From NCBI GenBank assembly GCA_029262115.1, contig JAJCZZ010000069.1, forward strand, positions 1 through 39,587: a stretch of DNA of 39,587 nt. The letters are read 5' to 3'. Position 1 is the stretch's first letter, and each line of letters opens with the position of its first letter. A program made the translations under genes and the position numbers. Below, one piece after another: positions 2,248-37,535 of the stretch. The stretch comes from Gemmatimonadota bacterium (GTDB taxonomy: Bacteria > Gemmatimonadota > Gemmatimonadetes > Longimicrobiales > Gaopeijiaceae). The notes below the pieces were generated by a model. It was not told the DNA's origin and did not search any database. It was given only the letters and a program-made list of their open reading frames with translations.

Positions 2248-2931
2248 ATGACGACCTTTCCTGATGCGGGTTCTCGGCGATCTGGCGTGCCGAGTTGCGG
2301 CTCTCTTCTTTCCGTCGTCGCGGCAATCCTCGTGCTGTGGGTGGCACCCGCGCATGGACAGGAACTCCCGGCTCCTCGCGGGTGGGTCAACGATTACGCC
2401 GATATCCTTTCGCCGGAGACGGAAAGACGTCTGGACGAACTGGCCCGTGAGGTCAGAGCACGATCCGGAGGCGAAATCGTCGTGGTCACGCTGCCGGACC
2501 TCGGCGGGGGTTCCATCGACGACATCGCCCTGCGTATCGGTCGTGAGTGACGGACTACGACAGTGGAGTCCTTTCCACCGCGACCGCCCTGGCCCTGATC
2601 TACGCCGACGAATTCGGTTTCGAGATCACCGGGCAGGCGCCGCTGGAGCCTCTTGCCTCGGAGGAGGACGGCGGAGGCATTCCGATTATCCTCATCGTCG
2701 TAGTGATCTTCGTGGTGATGAGGATGATGAGTGGAGGGGGTCGTCGCGGCCCCCCCCGGAGGACCCTTCGGCGGGGGGCGGCGTGGCCGGGGCCTGCCCG
2801 TTCCTGTCATCATTCCGTTCCCGCCCGGCGGTGGGCGCGGAGGCTTCGGTGGAGGCCTGGGGGGGGGCGGCTTCGGCGGCTTCGGCGGTGGGGGGGGTTT
2901 CGGTGGTGGTGGGGTGGGAGGGAGTTGGTGA
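2248..2931 (+). pseudogene. Broken TPM-domain (YgcG-like) gene
   Basis: The 5' part encodes a signal peptide (hydrophobic core then APAHGQ) and the start of a TPM domain (VNDYADILSPETERRLDEL through SIDDIALRIGRE), then stops at 2548-2550. The frame beginning at 2547 resumes with the end of the TPM domain (DYDSGVLSTATALALIYADEF) and a membrane segment (IILIVVVIFVVM). About 50 residues normally found between these parts are missing. A second frame change occurs near a run of eight C at about 2750-2757, after which the typical glycine-rich FGGG tail ending in GGSW is read to 2931. Intact TPM proteins are membrane-anchored extracytoplasmic proteins, often paired with LemA. Two lesions make this a likely pseudogene; the C-run shift alone could be a sequencing error. 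Confidence 0.8.
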
Positions 2932-2950
2932 CCCGGAGGAGAGGAATGCG

Positions 2951-3670
2951 ATGAGTTGGAACCCGGAGGCCGAGATCGCGGACTTCGTGCGCGGCCTGAG
3001 CGACACATACGGCGGCGACCTTGCGAGCGTGGTCTTACACGGATCGGTGGCGCGAGGCGACGCCCAGCACGACGTGAGTGACGTGAATCTGCTGGTTCTC
3101 GTGCGTGACGTATCTCCCGACGGCCTCATCCGCGGGTCGGATCTGGTACGCCATTGGCACGAGTCTGGGCACGGCGCGCCGCTGCTCTTCACGCCGAGTG
3201 AGTGGGCGCGCGCGATCGATGTCTTTCCGGTGGAGATCGCCGACATGGCGGACACACGACGGGTCCTTTACGGTGACGATCCCGTCGAGGGGCGTCAGGT
3301 ATCACTTCGTCACCTTCGCCTCCAGACCGAGCGGGAACTCCGCGGCCGCCTCGTGGTTCTTCGCGAAGGTATGGTGCTGGCCGGCGGGCGACCCGACGAA
3401 CTCGGTCGGCTCCTGCTGGTGGCTGCGCCGGCGGTTGCCGCCTACATGCGAGCCCTCCTTCGCCTGCTCCGATCCGAGGTGCCGAATGACACGTCGGCGG
3501 TCGTTCGCGCCGCCGCCGACCGGCTCGACGCCGACCCCGAACCGTTTCTGGATGTCTGGCGTGCCCGGCGGGCGCCCGGCTCTCTGCGCCCCACGTTGAG
3601 CCAGACCGCAGGCGTGTTCGATCTGCTTCTGGCCACCGCCAACCACGTCGACACTTTGGGGGAACGATGA
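2951..3670 (+). CDS. Nucleotidyltransferase-fold protein
   Basis: A 239-residue soluble protein. Residues 30-50 carry the signature of the polymerase-beta/MNT nucleotidyltransferase fold: HGSVARGDAQHDVSDVNLL, with Gly31-Ser32 and Asp44. The second acidic residue of the usual D-x-D metal pair is Asn46, so catalysis may be weakened or lost; proteins reading SDVN exist elsewhere in this superfamily. The C-terminal half is helical. The ATG at 2951 has GGAGGAGAGG just upstream. It lies between two genes with large internal deletions (TPM and lemA) and its stop overlaps the lemA start by 4 nt. The substrate is unknown; it resembles minimal MNT proteins but no HEPN partner is adjacent. Confidence 0.8.
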   Translation: MSWNPEAEIADFVRGLSDTYGGDLASVVLHGSVARGDAQHDVSDVNLLVLVRDVSPDGLIRGSDLVRHWHESGHGAPLLFTPSEWARAIDVFPVEIADMADTRRVLYGDDPVEGRQVSLRHLRLQTERELRGRLVVLREGMVLAGGRPDELGRLLLVAAPAVAAYMRALLRLLRSEVPNDTSAVVRAAADRLDADPEPFLDVWRARRAPGSLRPTLSQTAGVFDLLLATANHVDTLGER

Positions 3671-3915
3671 ATATCAGACCCGTGCTGCTGGCCCTGACGC
3701 TTTCGCTCTCGTTGTCCGGGTGCGGATACAACCAGATCCAGACGCTGGATGAGCGTACCGAAGCGCTCGAGGCCAACGTCGACACCGAACTCCTTCGACG
3801 GAACGACCAGGCCATCACCGCGAAAGTCATCGGAGCGGACGGGAAGGAGACCTTCCAGGCGCCGGCCAGCGCGCGCGAGGCACCGCATGTGGACTTCGGG
3901 CGAGACGGAAATTGA
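3667..3915 (+). pseudogene. lemA: lemA with in-frame internal deletion
   Basis: The 82-residue product starts like LemA: a lipoprotein signal ending LSGCGYNQIQTLDERTEAL, then TELLRRND, where LemA normally continues LIPNLV. Instead it jumps to ITAKVIGADGKETFQ and HVDFGRDGN, which matches the far C-terminus of LemA proteins. Roughly 100 central residues forming the helical bundle are therefore missing while the frame is kept. The product could be made as a short lipoprotein but cannot have the LemA fold. The ATG overlaps the upstream nucleotidyltransferase stop (ATGA), and its own stop overlaps the next start. The adjacent TPM gene, a common genomic partner of lemA, has also lost its middle. 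Confidence 0.65.
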
Positions 3916-4904
3916 ATACCGAGGCGGTCGGCACAGCGCGGCGTCGGTGGACGGTTCTGGGTGCGCTCGTGATCACGGCGGCGTGCGCACCGGCGGACGC
4001 TCCGCGGGAAGTTGAGGAGTCGATGGCCCCGCCCTGGCTCTGGAGCGAGGAACGCGTGCGCAGCGCGGTCGAGCAGGTCCGTGCGGGACGCGACCTGACG
4101 CCCGAGGAGTGGCCTGGAGGGACTCGGGTGGCCGTTCTGCTCTCCTTCGACGTGGACAACGAAACGGTGCATGGCCTCCGCGACGGCGAGGTCAGCGTCG
4201 GCCCGCTCTCGGAGGGGCAATATGGGGCGCGGAGAGCGCTCCCTCGCATCCTCGATCTCCTCGACCGGACGGACGTCCCGGCCACCTTCTTCTTCCCGGC
4301 GTGGAGCCTGAAACTCGCCCCGGAGCAGGCCGGCCTTATCCAGGAATCCGGGCGCCACGAGATCGCCGTGCACGGGTGGATCCACGAACGCAACACGACG
4401 CTGGACGGACCCACCGAGCGTAGGCTCCTCGAGCAGGCAGTGGCTTCCCTCACTGAGATCACGGGTCAGCGCCCCAGAGGATACCGCGCTCCCTCATGGA
4501 ACTTCAGCCCGAACACGCTGTCGATCGTGCGAGAGATGGGCTTCCTGTACGAGAGTTCTCTCATGGCCGACGACCGGCCGTACGAACTGCTCGCCTCCGG
4601 AGAACCCACCGGACTGGTGGAGCTGCCGGTCAGTTGGATTCTCGACGACGCGCCGCTCCTCAGTCCCCTGGGCGACCGATACTCGACCCCGCGCGACCTC
4701 ATGCAGGTGTGGATCGACGAGTTCGACAAGGCGTGGGAGGAGGGCACGATGTTCCTGCTCACCATGCATCCCCACCGGATCGGGGCGCGATCTCGAATTC
4801 TGGCGCTCGAAGGTTTGATTCAGCACATGAAAAGCCGCGAGGATGTGTGGTTTTCCACGCATGAGGAGGCCGCCCGCTACGTGCGCGCGTCAGCCGGAAT
4901 GTGA
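3912..4904 (+). CDS. Polysaccharide deacetylase, HpPgdA-like (CE4)
   Basis: A 330-residue protein of the carbohydrate esterase 4 / NodB family. Motifs: SFDVDNE (Asp80, Asp82) in place of the usual TFDDG, HGWIHER (His154, His158) for metal binding, YRAPSWNFSP (Arg192, Pro194), and LTMHPHRIG near residue 286 for the catalytic His. The SFDVDNE form is typical of the H. pylori PgdA-like subgroup, which also includes enzymes acting on cyclic imides and related amides, so the substrate is not certain. An N-terminal hydrophobic stretch ending ITAACAP suggests an exported protein or lipoprotein (Cys25). The TTG at 3912 overlaps the lemA stop; a GTG further in is an alternative start. It seems to be the last gene of the run beginning at the TPM remnant. 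Confidence 0.85.
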   Translation: MNTEAVGTARRRWTVLGALVITAACAPADAPREVEESMAPPWLWSEERVRSAVEQVRAGRDLTPEEWPGGTRVAVLLSFDVDNETVHGLRDGEVSVGPLSEGQYGARRALPRILDLLDRTDVPATFFFPAWSLKLAPEQAGLIQESGRHEIAVHGWIHERNTTLDGPTERRLLEQAVASLTEITGQRPRGYRAPSWNFSPNTLSIVREMGFLYESSLMADDRPYELLASGEPTGLVELPVSWILDDAPLLSPLGDRYSTPRDLMQVWIDEFDKAWEEGTMFLLTMHPHRIGARSRILALEGLIQHMKSREDVWFSTHEEAARYVRASAGM

Positions 4905-5043: not shown

Positions 5044-5220
5044 ATGAAGAACTCGACCCGCGTAAAGGCTCTGCTCCTGGCCATGGCATCCTTCATGGCC
5101 GCCGGCTGCGGCACTTCGGACGACACCCTGGTGATCTCCTTCGACGAGACGACGTCGCAGGCGACGGTCGTAGCGGCCACGACCTCGAAAACGCCTTCGC
5201 TGGCTCTGGCCTTCAAGTAG
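5044..5220 (+). CDS. Small lipoprotein, unknown function
   Basis: A 58-residue product with a basic N-terminus (MKNSTRVK), a hydrophobic core and lipobox MAAGC, leaving a mature peptide of about 36 residues rich in Thr, Ser, Ala and Asp. The ATG at 5044 follows CGGAG at 5034-5038. A TTGACATACAAT string at about 5023-5034 looks promoter-like, but the boxes are not correctly spaced. The convincing signal sequence supports a real gene. Its function is unknown. Confidence 0.6.
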   Translation: MKNSTRVKALLLAMASFMAAGCGTSDDTLVISFDETTSQATVVAATTSKTPSLALAFK

Positions 5221-19991: not shown

Positions 19992-22493
19992 CTATCCCTC
20001 CCGTAGTGCCTCAACGGGATCGACGCGCGCGGCTCGCCGCGCTGGCAGGTACGTGCAGGTCGCCGCGAGGGTGAGTAATCCCACGAAAGCGGCGAGATAC
20101 GTCGCCGGGTCGGTCGGGCTGACGCCAAAGACCACCGCACCCGTCACGCGATTCAACGCGAGAGCGCCGACCAGGCCGATGGCCGCCCCGGCGGCAGCCA
20201 CCTTGGTGCCGTCGCGAACCACCATCAACACCACTTGCGAAGCAGTCGCACCAAGCGCCATACGCACCCCGATCTCACCGGTCCGTCGGCCGACCGTCTG
20301 CGCAACGACACCAAAGACGCCGACGAGCCCCAACAGGAGGGCCGCGGAAGCGCCGATGACCACCAAACTCATGAAGAAAGCCATCGGAGCCCGCGCCTCC
20401 CTGACATACTCCTTCATGGTCGCGACTCGATCGATGGGCAGATCGGAGTCGACGGTCCATACGGTCTCTCTCACCGCACCTACGAGATCCAATGGAGGGA
20501 TGGCACTCCGTAGGACCAACGTCATCGTCCGCAGGTCGGCGGCCATGGCGCTGGGCGGGAAGTAGACGACGCGTGTCAGCTCGGACGGCAGCGGCCCCAG
20601 ATTCATGCTCACCGGTAGATCGCCGACGACTCCGACCACTGTATACCAGCGAGAAGGCTCAGGATCTGACCAATCGCCGAGCGACACGACTCGACCGATT
20701 GGATCCTCTCCGGGCCAGCGGTCATGAGCGAGCGAGGCACTCAAGATGACGGATAGGCTGTCGTCTGCGCCCGGCATGAAGGGGCGCCCCTGCAGCAGGG
20801 GCACCCGCATGGCTTCGAAATATCCGGGCGTCACCGTTGCTCGCGCGGAGGGAATGACGGGAGGAGGATCCAGGAGTGCAACGACGCGTCGCTCCCGAAG
20901 ATTGGTCCCCCCCGAACAACGATCCCGGAGCGGGATGCAGGACGCCGCAGCGACGCGCGAGACACTCGGCAGCCCTGAGAGGCGCTCCGTCAGCGCGTTC
21001 TGAAGCGAGACCTGGTTGGCGCGGCCCGGGTAGCTGGAGTCGAGTCGCACGTCGAACGTCAGCACATTCGTCGCGTCGAATCCCGGATCCACGTTCGTCA
21101 AGTTCCGGAAGCTCCGCACCATGAGGCCTGCTCCGATCAACAAGACCAAGGCAAACGCCATCTGGCTTGCCACCATGGCGCGACTGATGCGTGCTCGACC
21201 CGCAGATCCTCCCAGCCCCCTCGCCGATAGAATATCCGCCGTAGCTGACGACCTGAACCCGAGGCCGGCTAGTCCGAACGCGCTCCCACTGATCAGCGTC
21301 ACCATCACAGCGAACGCAACGACCGTTGAGTCGACACCCACTTCCGGAAGACGCGGCAGTTCGACGGGTCCGAAGTGCCGTACGAACTCGACCGCCACGA
21401 TACACACGGCCATGCCAATTAACCCGCCAACGGAGGCGAGCGTGACTCCCTCGGCGAGGAGGTGCCTCGCAAGACGTTCGTTCCCGGCCCCCAATGCGGA
21501 GCGGACGGCCATCTCGTGTCGACGAGCCTCTCCCCTTGCCAGGAAAAGGCCAACCACGTTGACGCATGCCATGAGCAGGACGAACGCCATGGCCCCGAAC
21601 ACGATCCAGAGAACCCGTCGGAGAGAATCAAAGACGATGACGCGCTTCAGGGGGATCACATGTAAACGCGTCTCCCGGTCGACGGCACTCCGAGCGATGC
21701 GCGATTCCGGGAACAACGCCGGAAGTCGAGGTACCATGCCGTTGAGGCGGGCCTCGGCTTCCTGAAGGTGCACGTCACTGTGGAGCCGTGCGATACCCTT
21801 CCATCCATATCCGCCGTAGCGGTCGCTCAATGGCAACGCTGACCACGCCTCCACCTCGGGGCCCGGAAACGTGAAGGCCTGGGGCATCACCCCGATCACC
21901 ACATACGGTCGTTCATCAAGGACGATCGTCCGACCAATCACCCTGGGGTCGGCTCCGAACCGGCGTGCCCAGAACGCGTGACTCAGGACAAGCACGGCGC
22001 CGTCGCTCGAGTCCGGATCGACATCTGAGATGGCGAACGCCCGGCCTGCCACCGGCGACACGCCCAGAACCCTGAAGAAGTCCCCCGAAGCGGGCTGCAC
22101 AGTGACACGCTCCGGATCACCCTGGCCGGTCAGGGTACGCCGTCGCGGCTGGGTGGAGTAGATGGCGGCGTGGTCGAGAACGTCCGGCATGGCCTGGGCG
22201 CGCGTGAGCATGCCCGGCGACAACCCCATCTGCGCATCCGGGAAGATGTTCACGGAGACAGCCAGCCAGACCAACCGCTCCGAATCCGGAAACGGCAGAG
22301 GCTTCAGAACGACGCCGTTGACCACCGCGAAGATGGTCGAGCTGCCAGCGATGCCGAGAGCAAAGGTGAGGACTGCCGCGAGGGCAAAGCCTCGCGCCCG
22401 CCGGAATGAACCCAGAGCGAATTTGAGGTCAGCGCGCAGGGCGTCGATGGTGAGATCCTCCGTTCGATGTGTCGCTTTGGCAGTGAGGGGCAA
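19992..22493 (-). CDS. ADOP-family FtsX/MacB permease, no PadR partner
   Basis: An 833-residue ABC-transporter permease of the duplicated orphan type: first membrane helix about 36-62 (FALAAVLTFALGIAGSSTIF), a large MacB periplasmic domain, an FtsX block with three helices (WIVFGAMAFVLLMACVNVVG and RRHEMAVRSALGAG), then a second helix/periplasmic/FtsX set ending RRTGEIGVRMALGAT and the C-terminal PARRAARVDPVEALREG. Such proteins work with a separate ATPase, probably in efflux or extraction of substrates from the membrane. No ATPase is encoded nearby. The TTG at 22493 is the most upstream start and is uncertain; GGAGG lies in-frame 12 codons further on without a good start after it. Unlike the other three permeases here it has no adjacent padR and no N-terminal prefix domain; a dispersed repeat lies immediately upstream. 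Confidence 0.88.
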   Translation of the reverse strand: MPLTAKATHRTEDLTIDALRADLKFALGSFRRARGFALAAVLTFALGIAGSSTIFAVVNGVVLKPLPFPDSERLVWLAVSVNIFPDAQMGLSPGMLTRAQAMPDVLDHAAIYSTQPRRRTLTGQGDPERVTVQPASGDFFRVLGVSPVAGRAFAISDVDPDSSDGAVLVLSHAFWARRFGADPRVIGRTIVLDERPYVVIGVMPQAFTFPGPEVEAWSALPLSDRYGGYGWKGIARLHSDVHLQEAEARLNGMVPRLPALFPESRIARSAVDRETRLHVIPLKRVIVFDSLRRVLWIVFGAMAFVLLMACVNVVGLFLARGEARRHEMAVRSALGAGNERLARHLLAEGVTLASVGGLIGMAVCIVAVEFVRHFGPVELPRLPEVGVDSTVVAFAVMVTLISGSAFGLAGLGFRSSATADILSARGLGGSAGRARISRAMVASQMAFALVLLIGAGLMVRSFRNLTNVDPGFDATNVLTFDVRLDSSYPGRANQVSLQNALTERLSGLPSVSRVAAASCIPLRDRCSGGTNLRERRVVALLDPPPVIPSARATVTPGYFEAMRVPLLQGRPFMPGADDSLSVILSASLAHDRWPGEDPIGRVVSLGDWSDPEPSRWYTVVGVVGDLPVSMNLGPLPSELTRVVYFPPSAMAADLRTMTLVLRSAIPPLDLVGAVRETVWTVDSDLPIDRVATMKEYVREARAPMAFFMSLVVIGASAALLLGLVGVFGVVAQTVGRRTGEIGVRMALGATASQVVLMVVRDGTKVAAAGAAIGLVGALALNRVTGAVVFGVSPTDPATYLAAFVGLLTLAATCTYLPARRAARVDPVEALREG

Positions 22494-24847: not shown

Positions 24848-24869
24848 CGTCCGCCGACCGGAGATGAGG

Positions 24870-25205
24870 ATGGCACTGGGGAAGCTCGAACAGGTGATTC
24901 TTCTCGCACTGGCGCACCTGGGAGGAGAGGGCCACGGGGCCCAGATCGCAGCTGTCATCGAGGAACAGACTGGACGAACTGCCTCGCCGGGCGGTCTGTA
25001 CACCGTGCTCGACCGCCTCCAGGACAAGGGCTACGTGGAGGGGTGGATCGGGGACGGCACGCCGGAGCGAGGCGGTCGCCGCCGTAAGGTCTACCGCATG
25101 CTCCCTGCAGGGGCGAGGGCCATCCGGAGCTGGTACGACGGGATCCGTCAACTGGGTGATAGCGCGCGCGCCTGCATGGACGCCCTCGCGGATGGCGCGG
25201 GATGA
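24870..25205 (+). CDS. PadR-family transcriptional regulator 1
   Basis: A 111-residue winged-helix protein: MALGKLEQVILLALAHLG at the start, GAQIAAVIEEQTGRTASPGG with the recognition helix, LYTVLDRLQDKGYVEG and a wing around GGRRRKVYRML, then a short dimerisation helix. This is the short PadR form typical of ADOP modules. The ATG at 24870 is preferred over 24864 because CGGAG is then 6 nt upstream. Its stop overlaps the permease start by 4 nt (ATGA), so the regulator and transporter are co-translated. It probably represses this operon through the palindrome at 24825-24847; the inducer is unknown. Confidence 0.88.
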   Translation: MALGKLEQVILLALAHLGGEGHGAQIAAVIEEQTGRTASPGGLYTVLDRLQDKGYVEGWIGDGTPERGGRRRKVYRMLPAGARAIRSWYDGIRQLGDSARACMDALADGAG

Positions 25206-27892
25206 ACCGGGCGCCCCGACCCCCGCTCTACCTTCGACTCCTCGCCCGCCTCCTCCCAGCGCGGGACCGGGAGTTCATCGTCGGCGATCTGGACGAGCGC
25301 TTCTCGCGAGACTCGCAACGGATGCCCGTGAGTCGCGCCAGACTGCGGTACGTTCGCGACCTTCTCGCGTCGGCCATTGTCCGAGCCGCGATCCGACTGC
25401 GTCCAGGGCTGGGCCGCACACCGCGAGGCCAACTGCAGCGCCCGCAGGTCCTGGAAGACTTCCTTCAGGACGTGCGACTGGGGCTTCGACAGATACGCCG
25501 TTCACCCGGCTTTGCGGGGGTCGCCGCGTTGACGCTGGCGCTGGCGCTGGGTGCCACTGCCTCGGTGTTCGGCGTCCTCGAGGGGGTCCTTCTCCGGCCC
25601 CTGCCGTATTCGCAACCCGACCGTCTCGTGGCGATATGGCAGCGGTTCCTCCCGGAGTCCGGATACGATTCGCCGAAGGCGACGCTGACCGGACCGGAGG
25701 CGTTGGACCTTGAAGAGGCCACGGAGACCCTGTCGTCCGTGGGCATCATACAGGGAGGCGCAGCGGTCGCACTGACGGGCGACGGGGCGGACGCCCGGGA
25801 GCTTTCCGTGTGGCTGGGAAGCGCATCGCTACGGCCGACGTTGGGCGTTGATCCGCTCCTGGGCAGGTGGTTCACCAGCGACGAGGATGTGCCGGGCGGG
25901 GCCGCCGTGGCCGTGATTACGCACTCGCTGTGGTCAGAACGCTACGGAGCGGATCCCGACGTTGTCGGGCGGGTCGTCATGATGAGCGGCACACCGACCG
26001 AGTTGGTCGGCGTCCTCCCTGCCGGGTTCACGCTCGGACTTTGGCGCGACGTCGGCGCATACCTCCCGTTACGTCTGACCCGAGCCAGCATCGCATCGGG
26101 GCATGCCTACGGCGTGGTCGGGCGCCTTGCTCCCGGATACGAAAGGGCTGACCTCGACGCGGAACTCGGGGTCGTGAATGAGCGATGGATGCAGGAGGGT
26201 CGCAGCCACGGGGACGAATTGTGGGCGCAGCCTCTGAAGGAGGATCGTCTCGGTGGGGCGGCGGAGCCCCTCGCCCTGATAACCGTTGCAGTCGGACTAG
26301 TGCTTCTCGTCGCATGCGTGAACATGGCGGGCCTTCTTCTCGCCCGCGGGGAGCGCCGGCAGGGCGAGGTAGCTATCCGCACCGCATTGGGCGCGAGTCG
26401 TTGGCGGGTGGTCCGCCAACTGCTCACCGAGTCCTCGGTACTGGCCGTCGGGGGCCTCCTACTCGCGATACCCCTGGCCTGGCTGGCCACCAGGGCGGTG
26501 ATCGACCTCGACCCCACGGCCCTTCCAAGATTGGGGGATGTCGCGCTTGGACGACGGGCACTCGCGGTCACAGCGGCCGGTACCGTGCTGACGACTCTAC
26601 TCTTCGGGCTTGCGCCCGCGCTTGTCATGCTCCGAAAGGCCGGTCCTACCTCAGGTTCAGCGCGTGGCCCGACAAGCGGCAGGGCTGCCGGCCGGTTACG
26701 CGGATTGCTTGTCACCACCGAGGTGACGGTCAGTATGGCCGTGGTGATCATAGCCGGGCTTCTGGTTCGGAGCTTCTGGGAACGCGCGTCGGCCGATCCC
26801 GGGTTCCGGGTGGAGAGCCTGGTTGCCTTCGACCTGACGCTGTCCGCAGAGCGTTATCCGGATGACCCGAGTGTCCCAGTGGCCGTAGAGAACGTGTTGG
26901 ACCGAGTCCGGTCGCTGCCTGGAGTGAGCTCCGCCAGCGCGGCTTCTGCAGTCCCCTTCGGCCAGCATATGCTGGTTTTCCCCTTCCGGCTCGATGGACA
27001 GCTCCCACGTGGGGCGAACGAGCCGGCCCGCGCAGCGGTCACGAACTTCGTGATGCCCGGCTACTTCACGACGATGGAGGTCCCCGTCAAGAACGGACGG
27101 GGACTCACCGAATCGGATCGCGCCGGTGCCACCGCTGTCGGCATCATCAATGAAACGATGGCCGACACCTTTTGGCCGGGAGAGAGCGCGGTCGGGAGAA
27201 GGTGGGCCTACGGTTCCGAGGACACCGGCGGCCCCTGGATCACCGTCGTGGGGGTCGTTCCCGACCAACTCCGAGGAAATGTGGGAGAGGATGCGTTCCC
27301 TCAGGTCTATCTCCCGCAATCCCAGTCGGAGCAGGTGATTCAACGCACAGCCCGATCCGTAACCGTGGTGTTTCGCGCAGCCACGGACCCGTCCTTACCT
27401 GCCCCGGCCATTCGAGCCACCGTGCGAGAGTTCGATGCGGCGTTACCGGTAGGGAATCTCCGGCTCATGACCGACGTCTTCTCGAGATCCATGGCCCGAC
27501 CACGCCTCATCACGTACCTGCTTGGCGTCTTCGCGGGAATCACCCTGATGCTGGCGCTGGTGGGGCTCTACGGAGTGGTCTCATATTCCGTGATGGGCCG
27601 GACAAGGGAGATCGGCGTCCGTGCGGCTCTCGGAGCCACCCGCATCCGCATTCTGCGCATGATTGTCGCCGAAGGGGCGGCGCCTCTCGTGCTGGGTATC
27701 GTCCTGGGCGTAGCCGCGGGATGGTACTCGGCCCGGTTCGTGGGTGACCTCTTGTACGTGGTCTCCGCGTCCGACCCCGCGACGTTCGTCACAGGTGCGC
27801 TTGCCTTCTTCGCAGTGGGTATTGGTGCAACGCTCGTCCCTGCGCTCCGTGCTACCGGCATCGCCCCCACCGTCGCGCTACGAGAGGAGTGA
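25202..27892 (+). CDS. ADOP-family FtsX/MacB permease 1
   Basis: An 896-residue permease. Residues about 1-70 form the permease prefix domain (LLARLLPARDREFIVGDLDE), a cytoplasmic segment frequent in ADOP proteins. Then come QDVRLGLRQIRRSPGFAG, the first helix, a MacB periplasmic domain (ARELSVWLGSASLRPTLGV, LWSERYGADPDVVGR), an FtsX block with ERRQGEVAIRTALGASRWR, a second periplasmic domain, and the final FtsX block with [18 protein letters not shown] and the end RATGIAPTVALREE. It would form a transporter with an unlinked ATPase; the substrate is unknown. It overlaps padR 1 by 4 nt and is convergent with the propeller lipoprotein gene at 27977. Confidence 0.92.
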   Translation: MNRAPRPPLYLRLLARLLPARDREFIVGDLDERFSRDSQRMPVSRARLRYVRDLLASAIVRAAIRLRPGLGRTPRGQLQRPQVLEDFLQDVRLGLRQIRRSPGFAGVAALTLALALGATASVFGVLEGVLLRPLPYSQPDRLVAIWQRFLPESGYDSPKATLTGPEALDLEEATETLSSVGIIQGGAAVALTGDGADARELSVWLGSASLRPTLGVDPLLGRWFTSDEDVPGGAAVAVITHSLWSERYGADPDVVGRVVMMSGTPTELVGVLPAGFTLGLWRDVGAYLPLRLTRASIASGHAYGVVGRLAPGYERADLDAELGVVNERWMQEGRSHGDELWAQPLKEDRLGGAAEPLALITVAVGLVLLVACVNMAGLLLARGERRQGEVAIRTALGASRWRVVRQLLTESSVLAVGGLLLAIPLAWLATRAVIDLDPTALPRLGDVALGRRALAVTAAGTVLTTLLFGLAPALVMLRKAGPTSGSARGPTSGRAAGRLRGLLVTTEVTVSMAVVIIAGLLVRSFWERASADPGFRVESLVAFDLTLSAERYPDDPSVPVAVENVLDRVRSLPGVSSASAASAVPFGQHMLVFPFRLDGQLPRGANEPARAAVTNFVMPGYFTTMEVPVKNGRGLTESDRAGATAVGIINETMADTFWPGESAVGRRWAYGSEDTGGPWITVVGVVPDQLRGNVGEDAFPQVYLPQSQSEQVIQRTARSVTVVFRAATDPSLPAPAIRATVREFDAALPVGNLRLMTDVFSRSMARPRLITYLLGVFAGITLMLALVGLYGVVSYSVMGRTREIGVRAALGATRIRILRMIVAEGAAPLVLGIVLGVAAGWYSARFVGDLLYVVSASDPATFVTGALAFFAVGIGATLVPALRATGIAPTVALREE

Positions 27893-29400: not shown

Positions 29401-32172
29401 TCAAGCCTCTGACTGAAGCGTCTCCGACGGCATTACCCTCAACGCCCTCACGATGGGGCCGGTGCAGGCCAGCGCCGCCACGACGAGCGCGACGCCGCAA
29501 GCGAGGACGACGGCGACGACCAGGCGCGATCCTCCCAGCCCCGGCACCTCGGCCCCCCGCAGAATCCACCATGCCAAAGGCGCACCCAGCACGGACCCGA
29601 CTCCGAGCTGCCCGATGGCACGCCGTGCGACAAGCCCGGTGATATCGTTCGCCTGTGCACCCAGCGCCGTTCGGATCCCGATCTCACGCCGACGCTGGCT
29701 GACGGTCAGGGACATGAGCGCGTGCGTACCCGCAGCCGCCAACACCACGAGGAATCCCGTTAGGAGGATGGCCGCCTTGATGGGGGCGGTAGCTCGGAAT
29801 TCGCTGGACGCGACGACGGTCCGGAGGGGTTGGGGCTCCGATACGATGTAGGTCGGATCGATCTCCGCGATGAGTCTACGTAGGCGTGGGGCGAACGACC
29901 CTGGATTCGCTTCGAGGCGTACGATGAGATCAAAGGAACGCGTCTCGTCGGCAAGAGGGAAATACAAGCCGCCCTCAGCTCGGTCCTCACCAATCCCTCC
30001 AATCCCTTGCCCTCCCTCCAATCCCGTGTCGTCCACGACGCCCACGATCTCGTACCATGGGCCGGCCGGCTCACCTCGCCCGTCGGTGTAGCGCAGACGC
30101 CGCCCGAGGGGATTTCGTTCTCCCAGTACTCGCCTGGCGAAGGTGGATCCTGCGATGACCGATGTCGCAGTCGCCTCAAGATTAACCGCACCAAATTCGC
30201 TGCCCGTCAGGAACGGTCGACCGATCGCCTCGAAGAAGCCCGGATGGACGTGGGTAACCCGCGCTCGCCGTGACCCGAGAGCGCCAGCGCTCGCGACTGC
30301 CTCGATTTCCACGTACCGCGTGTTTGGCGGGCTTCCCGGGAGCACATCGGCGATGGATACGTCGACGATCTCGGCCTGTGTCTTGAGCCGTCGAACAAGC
30401 TCGACCCGCAAGGCGAGGACCTTATCGGTATAGGCTCTGACCCAATCCTCCACGGAGATGTCGTCGGTGATGGGACCCTGGCGCACGGAACGATTTGGGA
30501 TGGCCACCTCGGCCACGACGAGCCTGGGTGATAGCTCGGCTGAAGTCGCGAGCTCGGGGCGCGCAAGCCAGAGGAACGCTCCAGCGCCGACGGTCGCGAC
30601 TGCCAGCGCCACGTTGGTCACTGTCAGAACGCCGTATAACCCGCCGAAACGAAGGGGTGCGCCTGTCGTAGCCCGCCCCAGTCGGATGCGGAGTCCGGCT
30701 CCCGTGACGCGCAACGCCGGAATCGTCCCGGCGATGACCGCGCTCCCTGTCGCGAGGGCCAGTGCCCAGAGCATCGTCTCCAGGGAGATGCCGTAGTCGA
30801 GCCAGTACGGCTGCGCCTCCTGGTACGCTTCCAGGAGCTGGCTCACCGCGCCCTGGGCAACGAGGAGGCCGACACCGGTGGCGATCAGGGCGATCACCAG
30901 AGCCTCGACGAACAGCTGGAAGACGATCCGCCGACGGCTGGCGCCGAGCGCGGTTCGCACCGCCAGCTCCGAAGTGCGCGCCGCCGTCCTGGCGAAGATC
31001 AACATCCCAACGTTGGCGCAGGCGACCACCAAGACGAGGAGCCCAAGGAGCTGGGCGAGGACCGCCGGGCCCGATGGAGCACCCGCGGGCTTGGCAAAGA
31101 GGCCCGTAAGGAATCCGACGACCTGCGGCTTCAGGCTGGCATAGTCCACCCCGGGCGCCGCCCGGATGGGCTCCGTGCGTTGGGCAACCCAGTGGTTTCG
31201 GACGGCCGCGAGCTCATCTTCGGCCTGCTCTGTTGAGACCCCGTCCCGGAGACGTCCGAATACCAGAGAACTGGCCCTGCGAAACGGCACCGGCTCTCCA
31301 GCACTTACGCTGACATCGTTCGACTGGAGGGGCAGCCAGAGCTCGTCGCGGTAGGGGAAGCGGAAGTCTTCCGGCATGACGCCCACGACCGTGCGCTGCA
31401 CGCCGCCGACGCGCACCTGACGTCCGACCACGTCGGGATCGGCGCCAAATCGGCTTCGCCACAGGGCGTGCCCGATAACGACCACGTGCGGGGCATCCGG
31501 TACATCGTCGGAGGCCACCAAGGGCCGGCCCAGGAGCGGCGGGACCTCCAGGATCTCAAAGAACGAGGGGGTCACCGCCGCACCCTGCACGGGCTCACTC
31601 CGGCCATCGCGGGTGACGACGTTGTAGCGGCGCTGGAGTGACGTGAAGGCCACGCTTCTCCAAGACGACAGGTTGTCTCGCCAATCCCTGAACTCGTCGA
31701 TGAATGGCGTATGCAGGCGTCCTGAGGTGGTATCCAGATACCGGAGCACCTTGATCCTGTCTGCCTCGCGGACGGGGAGAGCGGTCTGTTCCACACGCGC
31801 GACGTGCCCCGGCGCGAGGCCGGCGGGGATTCCGACACCCAAGGCGAGGGTGGCGACGATTGTGAGCCCAGGATGTTTGACGAGCATCCGAACACCGAGG
31901 CGGAGGTCGAGCCAGGAGATCCGGAGCGGGTAGCGGCGGGGGGTCAGCCTCCCGTCCTCGGCGCGCCGGATGACACGGGCGAGCTGCCAGGTATCGGGAC
32001 GAAGGAGTTGTGTGAAGTACCAGATGCCGGCGATGGCTGATCCGCGGCGTCCACGTACGATGCGATATTCGCTGTCGACGTCTTCCAAGGCGTCCGCGCC
32101 TTTGCCCATGCCGAGGATCCGACGGAGCATTCTCCGGGTCCACCGCGGAGGTTCGTTCAGCGAGTCGGTCAT
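29401..32172 (-). CDS. ADOP-family FtsX/MacB permease 2, divergent
   Basis: A 923-residue permease starting MTDSLNEPPRW. The N-terminal ~95 residues are a basic cytoplasmic prefix, followed by LDLRLGVRMLVKHPGLTIVA and a first helix. The usual ANTAIFSVV segment after it is replaced by PAGLAPGHVARVEQ, so the first helix is atypical. MacB periplasmic domains (PSFFEILEVPPLLGRPL; PGFFEAIGRPFLTGSEF) and two FtsX blocks (ARTSELAVRTALGASRRR; QRRREIGIRTALGAQAND) follow, ending RVMPSETLQSEA. The ATG at 32172 overlaps the padR 2 stop by 4 nt; the open frame further upstream lies inside padR. It probably functions as an efflux or membrane-extraction permease with an unlinked ATPase. Confidence 0.9.
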   Translation of the reverse strand: MTDSLNEPPRWTRRMLRRILGMGKGADALEDVDSEYRIVRGRRGSAIAGIWYFTQLLRPDTWQLARVIRRAEDGRLTPRRYPLRISWLDLRLGVRMLVKHPGLTIVATLALGVGIPAGLAPGHVARVEQTALPVREADRIKVLRYLDTTSGRLHTPFIDEFRDWRDNLSSWRSVAFTSLQRRYNVVTRDGRSEPVQGAAVTPSFFEILEVPPLLGRPLVASDDVPDAPHVVVIGHALWRSRFGADPDVVGRQVRVGGVQRTVVGVMPEDFRFPYRDELWLPLQSNDVSVSAGEPVPFRRASSLVFGRLRDGVSTEQAEDELAAVRNHWVAQRTEPIRAAPGVDYASLKPQVVGFLTGLFAKPAGAPSGPAVLAQLLGLLVLVVACANVGMLIFARTAARTSELAVRTALGASRRRIVFQLFVEALVIALIATGVGLLVAQGAVSQLLEAYQEAQPYWLDYGISLETMLWALALATGSAVIAGTIPALRVTGAGLRIRLGRATTGAPLRFGGLYGVLTVTNVALAVATVGAGAFLWLARPELATSAELSPRLVVAEVAIPNRSVRQGPITDDISVEDWVRAYTDKVLALRVELVRRLKTQAEIVDVSIADVLPGSPPNTRYVEIEAVASAGALGSRRARVTHVHPGFFEAIGRPFLTGSEFGAVNLEATATSVIAGSTFARRVLGERNPLGRRLRYTDGRGEPAGPWYEIVGVVDDTGLEGGQGIGGIGEDRAEGGLYFPLADETRSFDLIVRLEANPGSFAPRLRRLIAEIDPTYIVSEPQPLRTVVASSEFRATAPIKAAILLTGFLVVLAAAGTHALMSLTVSQRRREIGIRTALGAQANDITGLVARRAIGQLGVGSVLGAPLAWWILRGAEVPGLGGSRLVVAVVLACGVALVVAALACTGPIVRALRVMPSETLQSEA

Positions 32173-32471
32173 GGGACGACCACGCCCTCCCACATACGCG
32201 CCATGGATGCGCGAGCGGCCTGAAGGGCTTGCCATCCCGAGGGAGTGAGACTGAAAATTCGGCGCGCCCGGCCGCCACCCGGCCTCGGAACCTGAATCGA
32301 CTCGGCAAGGCCCTGCTCTTCCAGACGAACCAGAGTGACCCAGACGGTTTGAACGGAGACGTTTCGGCCGGCAATGCCGCGGAGTTCCTCCCGGATGGCG
32401 GCGCCGTAGGCGTCTTCTCCCAGGCGGGCCACGGCGAGCATGCTGAGTTGCTGGAGGTCACCGAGCGACAT
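32169..32471 (-). CDS. PadR-family transcriptional regulator 2
   Basis: A 100-residue winged-helix protein: MSLGDLQQLSMLAVARLGEDAYGAAIREEL, then VSVQTVWVTLVRLEEQGLAES in the recognition-helix region and a wing at PGGGRARRIFSLTPSG. The C-terminal dimerisation helix is short. PadR regulators usually read LYxxLxRLexkG; here the Tyr is replaced by Trp (VWVTLVRLEEQG). The ATG at 32471 follows AGGGAG. It overlaps permease 2 by 4 nt and has a long palindrome 12 nt upstream of its start, so it is likely the autorepressor of a padR-permease operon, possibly including the downstream propeller lipoprotein. Confidence 0.87.
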   Translation of the reverse strand: MSLGDLQQLSMLAVARLGEDAYGAAIREELRGIAGRNVSVQTVWVTLVRLEEQGLAESIQVPRPGGGRARRIFSLTPSGWQALQAARASMARMWEGVVVP

Positions 32472-34484: not shown

Positions 34485-34507
34485 AATACATGTAAAATAC
34501 ATGTATT
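34485..34507 (+). promoter_or_regulatory. Perfect 23-bp palindrome upstream of padR 3
   Basis: Arms aatacatgta (34485-34494) and tacatgtatt (34498-34507) with centre aaa are perfect inverted repeats containing ATGT/ACAT, the known PadR/LmrR-type core. A TTGACT at 34464-34469 followed after 17 nt by TACATG (34487-34492) places the operator over the likely -10 box, so a bound repressor would block RNA polymerase. This is the clearest operator in the window. Confidence 0.75.
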
Positions 34508-34521
34508 CATCCAAGGGCACT

Positions 34522-34875
34522 ATGTCCGACATCCCGCATCTCCCTCTTAGCCCTCTCGACTACCACGTCCTCGTTGCGCTGGCCGAGGAGGATTTGTACG
34601 GCTACGCGATCATGAAAGCGATAGAGAAGGAGTCAGGGGGGGCGCTGACACCCGAGATCGGCTCACTCTATCGCGTGCTCGCGCGGCTCCAGGACCAGGG
34701 CCTCCTCACCGAGGCCGATGCGCCCGAGGACGCCCCGGACACCCAACGTGGCCGGCCCCGCCGCTACTATCGCTCTACCCCGCTGGCGCTGAAGGTCCTG
34801 CGTGCTGAAACGGAGCGGGTAGGCCGGGTGGTCGACCGGGCTCGCTCGCTCCTCGTGGGAGAGGGTCGCCCGTGA
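34522..34875 (+). CDS. PadR-family transcriptional regulator 3
   Basis: A 117-residue winged-helix protein: [58 protein letters not shown] (recognition helix and turn), a wing at [14 protein letters not shown], and the C-terminal helix [18 protein letters not shown] for dimerisation. It matches the classic PadR layout. The ATG at 34522 follows AAGGGC; an upstream ATG at 34501 lies inside the operator and would matter only for a near-leaderless transcript. Its stop overlaps the permease start by 4 nt (GTGA). The palindrome immediately upstream strongly suggests autorepression of the padR-permease operon. Confidence 0.9.
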
Positions 34876-37535
34876 GAGGGCCGTCTCGCCTTGTGCTCAC
34901 CCTGGTGCGCATCGCGCTGAGGGCGTACCCGCAAGACTTCAGGCACAGCTTCGGTCTCGATATGGAGCAGGCGTTCAGCGACGGCTGGCTGGACACCCGC
35001 TCGCGTGGACGCGTTTCCACCGCGCGCTTCCTCTTTCGCACGCTGGTGAACACCACCGCCATGGGGATCGCTGAGCGTGTCCAGCCATCCCGGTCTTCCA
35101 ACGACGAACCCGAGCTCGGCCCACCCATGGATGCCATCCTACAAGATTTCCGCCACACGGTTCGGGCCCTCCGCCGTCGCCCCGGTTTCACGTTCATCGC
35201 CGTTCTGACACTGGCTCTGGGGGTTGGCGCCAACACGGCCATCTTCAGCGTGGTGCACGGCGTGCTGCTGACGCCGTTGCCCTACGAGGACGCCGACCGC
35301 CTCGTGACCGTTTGGGCGGCGAACGAGGCCGACCCGGACGCGCGGGGCAACATGTCCTCACCGGACATCGAGGATCTTGCGGCGAGCGCGTCCTTCGAAT
35401 CACTCGTGGCTTACGCCGAAGACGATTTCGCGCTGACCGGACTCGGGGAGGCGGAAGTGGTCGAAGGTGCCAGGGCGGTCGGTAGCCTCCTGCAGGTCTT
35501 CGGCTTGGCACCCCAGTTGGGCCGCGATATCGAGAGCGGGGACGCCCGGGAGGGTGCGGCCAGCGTCGTGGTTGTGAGCAACGCCTTCTGGCAGGAGCGC
35601 TTCGCCGCCGACCCGGATGTCCTGGGCCGCATCTTGGAACTGGATGGACGGCGCTATGAGATCGTTGGTGTGGCGCCACCCGGCTTCAATTTCCCCGGCT
35701 CATCCAACCTGTGGCACTCGCACGAACTCGACCCGGGGTGCGGCCGGGGTTGCCATATCTTCGCGAGCATCGGGCGGCTAGCCTCCGGTGCGACCCTGGA
35801 GCAGGCCCTCCAGGAGGCAAACGCTAAAGCCCAAAGCCTCCAGGAGACCTTCCCCGACTCGAACCACGAGAAGCTCTTCGCTCTCGTTCCCTTGCTGGAC
35901 CTCGTCGTGGGCGATGTCCGTACCGGTCTCTGGGTGCTCCTGGGCGCGGTGGGCCTCGTCCTTCTCATCGCCTGTGCGAACGTCGCAAACCTTCTCCTCG
36001 TCCGGGCACAAACGCGGTCAGGAGAAGTCGCGGTGCGGGCTGCCCTGGGCGCCAGTGGACGTCGCCTGGCTGCTCAGGTGATGGTGGAGAGCCTTGTCCT
36101 CTCGACGGCCGGGGGCGCGGCCGGCCTGCTGCTGGCCTGGGCAGGCGTGGAGGCGCTCCGCCGAATGGCCCCCGCCGATCTCCCCCGGCTCGACCAGGTA
36201 GCGGTCGACAGCACGGTACTTCTCTTCACGTTGGCGCTGGTCGTGTCAGTGGCCCTCCTGTTCGGCGCAGTCCCGGCCGTCCGCTCCGCCCGAACGTCCC
36301 TGGCTTCAAGCCTCGGGAGCGCGGGGCCGCGAAGCGGGGGGCACCGGGACGCCCGCACCCGGTCTCTCCTCCTGGCCGGTGAAGTGGCCCTCTCCCTGGT
36401 GCTCCTCGTAGGGGCGGGGCTCCTTCTCAAGAGCTTCGAGCGGTTGATGGCGGTCGAACTCGGGTACGAGCCCCAGAACGTGGTCCGGTTCTCGCTCTTC
36501 CTCCCGGCCAGCCGCTATCCAGATCTCGGAGAAATCGGCGGCTTTTTCGACCGGCTCGAGGAACGGCTCCTCGCGACGCCCGGCGTCGACGCAGCCGGCT
36601 CCACCCTAGGCGCTCCACTCGGAACGACGAGGGTGGTGGCCAATCTACAGGTCGCCGGCCGGCCGGAGGCCGGCCCTGGGCGGAAGCGAGAGGCCCGTTT
36701 CAACACCGCAACGCCTGGGTACTTCGAGGCCGTGGGGATCCCGATTCTGCGGGGCCGCGGTATCCTTCCGTCCGACAGGGTCGACGCGGTCCCTGTTGCA
36801 GTGGTGAGCCAGCGCTTCGTGGAGCAGAACTTCCCCGGCGAGGAGCCACTGGGACAGGCGGTCACCATGTCCGTCGACTTCGGCCATGGAAAGCCCACGT
36901 TTACCATCGTCGGGGTCGTCCCGAATGTCGTCTCCTCGTCCCTCACGAGCGAGGCGCACGCGGCAATCTATGTGCCTCTCGCTCAGATGGGGCCAGGGTT
37001 TGCCACCGTTCACGTCCGTGCGAGAGAGGGGGTGGCGCCCGTACTGCCAACCCTCCGGCGGGTCGTCCAAGACCTGGACCCGGACCTCCCACTTCGGGAC
37101 GTAGAGACCATGCGGGACGCGGTTCAGGGCAAGCTCGCCCCGACGCGCTTCTACTTGACCCTGATCGCCCTTTTCGCCGGACTCGCTTTGGTCCTGGCGG
37201 CAGTGGGCCTCTACGGCGTCGTAGCGTACCTCGCCTCACGGCGCACCCGGGAGATCGGCGTGCGCATTGCCCTCGGCGCCGACCGGAGATCAATCGCCGG
37301 CCTGGTCCTGCGCGAGGGGGTGCAGCCCGCGCTCCTAGGCGTGAGCGTCGGGCTCCTCGCGGCGTGGGCCGGCGCTCGGCTACTGGACAATCTCCTCTTC
37401 CAGGTGGCGCCTACTGACCCCTTGATCTTCGCAGGCGTGACCGCGCTCCTCCTCATAGTGGTCGTCGCCGCTACGCTCCTGCCCGCGCGGAACGCGGCCC
37501 GCCTAGATCCGATGGAGGCGCTCAGGGCCGAGTGA
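34872..37535 (+). CDS. ADOP-family FtsX/MacB permease 3
   Basis: An 887-residue permease starting with GTG at 34872, overlapping padR 3. The N-terminal prefix (about 1-70; [21 protein letters not shown]) is the other common ADOP prefix type, different from that of permease 1. Then come [19 protein letters not shown], the canonical first helix with [17 protein letters not shown], a MacB domain, FtsX block 1 ([18 protein letters not shown]), a second helix/periplasmic domain, and FtsX block 2 ([18 protein letters not shown]) ending [17 protein letters not shown]. It is the most canonical of the four. Export or extraction of a hydrophobic compound with an unlinked ATPase is likely; the substrate is unknown. 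Confidence 0.93.

Follow-up and report, generated by a model that had tools for sequence, protein, structure and literature searches.

Gene content of the locus

The window – the whole stretch of DNA that was analysed, 39,587 nucleotides in length – is the entire contig C69 of a genome assembly (G000) of 5.45 Mb in 110 contigs that is 95.66% complete. G000 denotes the window's own genome, f1 its own family, and f2 and f3 two sister families in the same order. On the forward strand the window encodes the pieces of a TPM gene (2248–2931), a nucleotidyltransferase (NT, 2951–3670) and a short lemA gene (3667–3915). The features of the locus are:

2248–2550, forward strand: N-terminal part of TPM, with a signal segment and the first part of the TPM domain (PF04536, alignment)
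2548–2552, forward strand: TPM deletion junction with a change of frame (alignment to intact TPMs)
2553–2749, forward strand: C-terminal part of the TPM domain and a membrane segment, in another frame (C-side HSPs)
2750–2757, forward strand: run of eight C, second TPM frame change (ORFs in two frames on either side)
2758–2931, forward strand: Gly-rich TPM tail, in the same frame as the N-terminal part (ORF 2731–2931)
2951–3670, forward strand: NT, NTP_transf_2 (PF01909, alignment of relatives)
3667–3915, forward strand: lemA with an in-frame internal deletion, an 82-amino acid lipoprotein-like ORF (alignment)
3807–3808, forward strand: lemA deletion junction, RRND/QAIT (alignment to full LemA)
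3912–4904: polysaccharide deacetylase, the gene directly after lemA (Pfam)

The TPM gene is broken. Its N-terminal part stops at a TGA (2548–2550) at the deletion junction and matches positions 1–53 of the 125 in the PF04536 profile with 41.8 bits (1–54 in another search). When three intact relatives were used as queries, the gene aligned as two pieces in different frames, one from 2353, 2365 or 2380 to 2547 and the other from 2553 to 2666, 2672 or 2675. The N-side alignment of intact TPMs stops at 2547, and in the three queries that show both pieces 66–67 query residues are missing, with 5 nt between the pieces. No single frame contains a complete TPM domain. The start of the profile, a later DY...ADEFGFE, the membrane segment and the Gly-rich tail are all recognisable, as in other TPM domain proteins (PF04536); the ORF 2731–2931 ends in GGGGVGGSW, resembling the tails of intact TPMs. 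Unlike those proteins, the TPM of the window lacks its centre and has two frame changes. The first-pass annotation had proposed an internal loss of about 50 residues and a frameshift. The loss is real, but alignment to intact relatives puts it at 66–67 residues, and the frame does change, both at the 2548–2552 junction and at the run of eight C (2750–2757).

The lemA gene has also lost its centre, with the frame retained as had been described. The first half of the short protein is the LemA N-terminus with its lipobox and the second half is the LemA C-terminus, and both ends are homologous by alignment to 10 full LemA proteins, which bears out the description of an 82-residue lipoprotein-like ORF joining the two termini. 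The protein does not match the LemA profile (PF04011, 149 positions) and is without any Pfam family. At the RRND/QAIT junction, the 13 full-length loci hold 108–125 extra residues (116–117 in f2), so the loss was put at about 117 residues, not the approximately 100 first suggested. The N-terminal lipobox segment and the C-terminal ITAKVIGA...VDFG are thus shared with the LemA family, and what the short LemA lacks is the ca. 117 central residues, presumably the long helical part. Some full lemA genes have RR on both sides of the part lost in the window, and some TPM genes have R-E. Deletion by way of short direct repeats was considered; the junctions share at most a few bases, and no mechanism is claimed.

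The gene between the two was described as intact, and it is: the NT frame is open along its whole length (2951–3670), can be aligned from one end to the other with nine relatives, and matches PF01909 with 23.4 bits against a cut-off of 21. Its identity to ten loci is 39–46% among the pairs listed. The canonical metal-binding motif of NTP_transf_2 proteins is GS-x(9-13)-D-h-[DE]. The NT of the window has SDVN at that site and so departs from the motif, as do its relatives – Asn occupies the last motif position in all 11 of those seen (L073–L080, L082, L138 and L139). With Asn in place of the last acidic residue throughout, the whole NT subfamily may be catalytically unusual. A scan of genome contigs with NT found one relative, with 38% identity, in a MAG titled Gemmatimonadales.

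Full-length clusters in the sister families

A search of 59 genomes (the window's own included) with the short LemA matched 21 others, all of them in f2 or f3 and each in two pieces that make up a full LemA. Full-length TPM is present in 21 of the 24 f2/f3 genomes, and cluster-type lemA, which the short query matches in two separate parts, likewise in 21 of 24. TPM and lemA are within ca. 2 kb on the same contig in 16 of the 24, and on different contigs in four more. The order TPM-NT-lemA was found in nine of the ten loci read out (L073–L082), L081 having lemA only. Aligned with these loci, as the first-pass annotation had advised, the window lacks the centres of genes that are full-length in the relatives. 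One of the loci, L073 (contig C191 of genome G057), has a tandem pair of TPM genes before NT and lemA.

The search with the short LemA was extended to 154 genomes of the order, the window's own included. Thirty-two others were matched, 29 as two pieces and three with the N-terminal piece only. A one-piece short LemA was found in none of the 153 other genomes, in a search that would miss a strongly diverged form. A conserved short LemA was therefore rejected, and the possibility that the short form represents a new family of small lipoproteins is not supported within the order.

The first-pass annotation had also advised looking for another intact pair in the genome. For LemA there is one full copy, a protein at 21314–21760 of contig C50 (L083; 207 bits), which is the sole match to the LemA profile in G000, but no second TPM was found anywhere in the assembly. 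With no further TPM match and only this different LemA, relocation of the lost centres within G000 was rejected. The C50 protein shares 39% identity with the LemA of L081, which is of the cluster type, and itself apparently belongs to a different branch.

Near-absence of the cluster in the own family

Within the window's own family, 121 genomes were searched, the window's included, of which 73 reach 90% completeness or more with contamination of no more than 5%. TPM was found in six, NT in six, and one or the other in nine; 112 of the 121 have neither at E ≤ 0.001. The congener G001, which is 89% complete, is among those with no match to TPM or NT.

The few matches in other members differ in what remains. 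In G117 all three frames – TPM, NT and LemA – are open and in that order. In G104, TPM and NT are followed by the beginning of lemA, at which the contig ends, and the TPM of G007 is cut by a contig end. G103 and G141 hold remnants. The TPM of G103 runs from ...YVNDFAG straight into VVLLLKPG..., in a changed frame, and lacks the Gly-rich tail; neither NT nor lemA was matched on the two 5.4 kb contig ends that were read. In G141, an NT remnant with one TAG (query residues 148–235; 197–235 in a second search) lies ahead of a lemA that is full-length, and this genome, which is 73% complete, gave no match to TPM. Both remnants were read from fragmented assemblies (120 contigs for G103, 280 for G141), and the G103 break adjoins contig ends. 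These ends, of contigs C32 and C54 (L136 and L137), fall in one broken TPM gene and overlap, by eye, with a few base differences, which suggests a mixture of strains there. G091 has NT, with no match to TPM or lemA within 11 kb. A distant TPM in G107 (32%) and a short NT-like match in G027 may be unrelated.

Across the remnant loci, then, TPM is damaged or gone in G000, G103 and G141, NT is open in G000 and G091, and lemA is intact in G141. Different genes broken in different members are as expected if the entire cluster lost its use. The first-pass annotation had offered loss of a shared pathway as one explanation of the window; in the sense of cluster loss, this agrees with the 112 of 121 genomes without TPM or NT and with the differently broken remnants elsewhere. 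Full homologues in relatives together with loss in the own lineage, which is the pattern of a pseudogene, were both found.

Origin of the contig

The distribution of NT raises the question of whether the contig came from a sister family and was put into G000 by binning, as a contaminant. Among the pairs listed, the NT of the window is roughly as close to f2 (39–46%) and f3 (39–43%) as to G117 of its own family (39%), and NT is absent from nearly all genomes of that family. The adjoining deacetylase gene, however, is an own-family gene: it is 76% identical in DNA to that of the congener G001 across 782 bases, and some match to it is present in 89 of the 121 family genomes, many of them distant and the closest with 72–76% protein identity. 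The GC content of the contig (65.4%) also fits that of the G000 sample (66.4%), and contamination would in any case leave the short LemA unexplained. Contamination was accordingly rejected as largely refuted, and is hardly credible.

Beside the deacetylase in six relatives (L197 and L203–L207), the cluster queries had no match except a chance-level one to NT (E 0.09), so that no ancestral empty site can be read there.

Codon use and sequence divergence

The pieces of TPM and LemA keep gene-like codon use. The codon score is 0.243 for LemA (0.246 for the mature part) and 0.292 for the C-terminal part of TPM over 2550–2744, compared with a median of 0.222 and a 5th percentile of 0.077 in 66-codon windows of G000 genes. 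The N-terminal part of TPM scores 0.102 (0.177 without the signal segment) and the Gly-rich tail −0.053. Such codon use points to recent breaks, to retention of the short LemA, or to a local fault of assembly.

Identities between loci rest on 36 of the 55 locus pairs, with TPM left out for L080 and L082; the NT of relatives was taken from stop to stop, and some NT alignments extend into upstream sequence. Among the pairs listed, the window is 58–71% identical to f2 in the LemA ends, 50–56% in the TPM parts and 39–46% in NT. Between f2 and L079 of f3 the values are 53–58%, 61–66% and 39–47%, and between f2 and the intact own-family locus of G117 (L139) they are 49–55%, 42–48% and 34–43%, again among the pairs listed. 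A TPM identity of 50–56% to f2 was considered as a sign of decay and rejected, because the intact TPM of G117 has 42–48%. As judged from these alignments, neither remnant appears to show clear excess change: the LemA remnant seems as conserved as intact LemA, and the TPM remnant at least as close to f2 as the intact TPM of G117. Remnants so conserved and gene-like are equally compatible with decay, with a break of very recent date, with retention of the short protein and with a fault in the assembly. The result for TPM lowered the probability of decay very slightly, in favour of an artefact.

One reading of the conserved ends is that the 82-residue LemA functions as a mini-lipoprotein, which kept its lipobox and conserved C-terminal segment without the central part; a single in-frame deletion would have created it from LemA. 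The frame is kept over the junction and the lipobox is kept, the remnant is 58–71% identical to f2 LemA among the pairs listed, and its codon score is 0.243. Against this, none of the 32 other matched genomes of the order has the short form in one piece, TPM, its partner in the locus, is itself broken, and the frame would be expected to survive about one-third of random deletions. A working mini-lipoprotein is thus improbable, and its stronger form, a new lipid-anchored peptide consisting of only the conserved LemA ends and retained with NT after the loss of TPM, is very doubtful.

Scan for assembly artefacts

The first-pass annotation had also raised the possibility of a recurrent artefact. 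Bearing on this is a comparison of 958 kb of G000 with 800 kb of G005, a genome in a single contig. A region was any stretch of G000 with a match to a predicted G005 protein 150 or more residues long, and together the regions gave 28,811 aligned residues. No frame change or deletion of more than 30 residues was found in any of the 90 G000 regions, and 3 of 130 G005 regions were flagged in the reverse comparison. A stricter first scan required 80-residue matches, so that fragments as short as the TPM and LemA pieces could escape it; it flagged 1 of 85 G000 regions (an 830-base overlap of pieces, repeat-like) and 4 of 126 G005 regions. The second scan used looser match limits and barred large overlaps.

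Deletions of 205, 210 and 351 nt, planted only where matches were long enough (69, 69 and 63 of the 90 regions), were recovered in 51 of 69, 45 of 69 and 41 of 63 cases, a sensitivity of 65–74%. The real lesions were flagged by three of ten TPM queries and five of ten LemA queries, which also indicates moderate sensitivity. With none of the 90 regions affected, a general fault of the G000 assembly is unlikely, and the recurrent artefact finds no support in this sample.

A local artefact is a different matter. Mixed strains or hard GC-rich sequence could have led the assembly to skip two stretches and to slip at the run of C, the genes of the living organism being full-length. The undamaged codon use of the pieces and the lack of excess protein change in them (among the pairs listed) speak for this; the second TPM frame change sits in a homopolymer, the assembly is in many contigs, and the overlapping contig ends of G103 indicate that the gene can be awkward to assemble. 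On the other hand, the 90 sampled regions are clean, the assembly has no other TPM match and no match to a cluster-type LemA, and the cluster has been nearly discarded by the family, with broken copies that have different breakpoints in two other members. A local artefact is possible, but on balance unlikely.

Probable decay of the TPM-NT-lemA cluster

The locus is probably a TPM-NT-LemA cluster decaying by internal deletion in a family that has mostly lost it. The assembly contains the lesions, relatives have the full genes, the family is nearly without the cluster, and two other members have different breaks. A net loss of ca. 195 nt would remove the centre of TPM and shift its frame, and a further frame change would arise at the run of C. 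A separate loss of ca. 350 nt would remove the centre of LemA and leave the frame unshifted. The NT would still be open because it serves a use of its own or has escaped damage so far. The lesions would then be present in the living genome, the breaks would be recent, and neither remnant is likely to work as a TPM or LemA protein. Further points count against decay – all of the lesions in the window rest on one assembly, and two deletions across three adjacent genes are unusual for a genome that is clean in the sample.

Like bacterial pseudogenes in general, the locus has genes without their centres and changes of frame, is patchily absent among relatives, and leaves remnants that differ from one relative to the next. 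It differs from them in the codon use of its pieces, which still resembles that of genes and would make the break a recent one. An ordinary case of gene decay is most likely. Provided that it is real, the locus offers a clear if small example of a gene cluster, itself of poorly known function, being dismantled piecewise in one bacterial family, in which the first gene struck differs among members; no general view is altered.

Within the accessible part of one paper library, no literature on the TPM-NT-LemA cluster or its decay was found. A study of a Flavobacterium columnare sppA mutant describes LemA and TPM domain genes as up-regulated, each reported separately (PMC13236525).

Other genes in the window

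Beyond the deacetylase, a 58-amino acid ORF at 5044–5220 begins like a lipoprotein (MKNSTRVKALLLAMASFMAAGCGTS...) and matches no Pfam family; it could be a further lipoprotein that is small or has been shortened. Three PadR regulators (Pfam) are encoded further along the contig, in the regions 24864–27892 (forward strand), 29401–32471 (reverse strand) and 34501–37535 (forward strand). Each is directly followed, with a slight overlap, by a gene for a large MacB_PCD/FtsX permease (Pfam).
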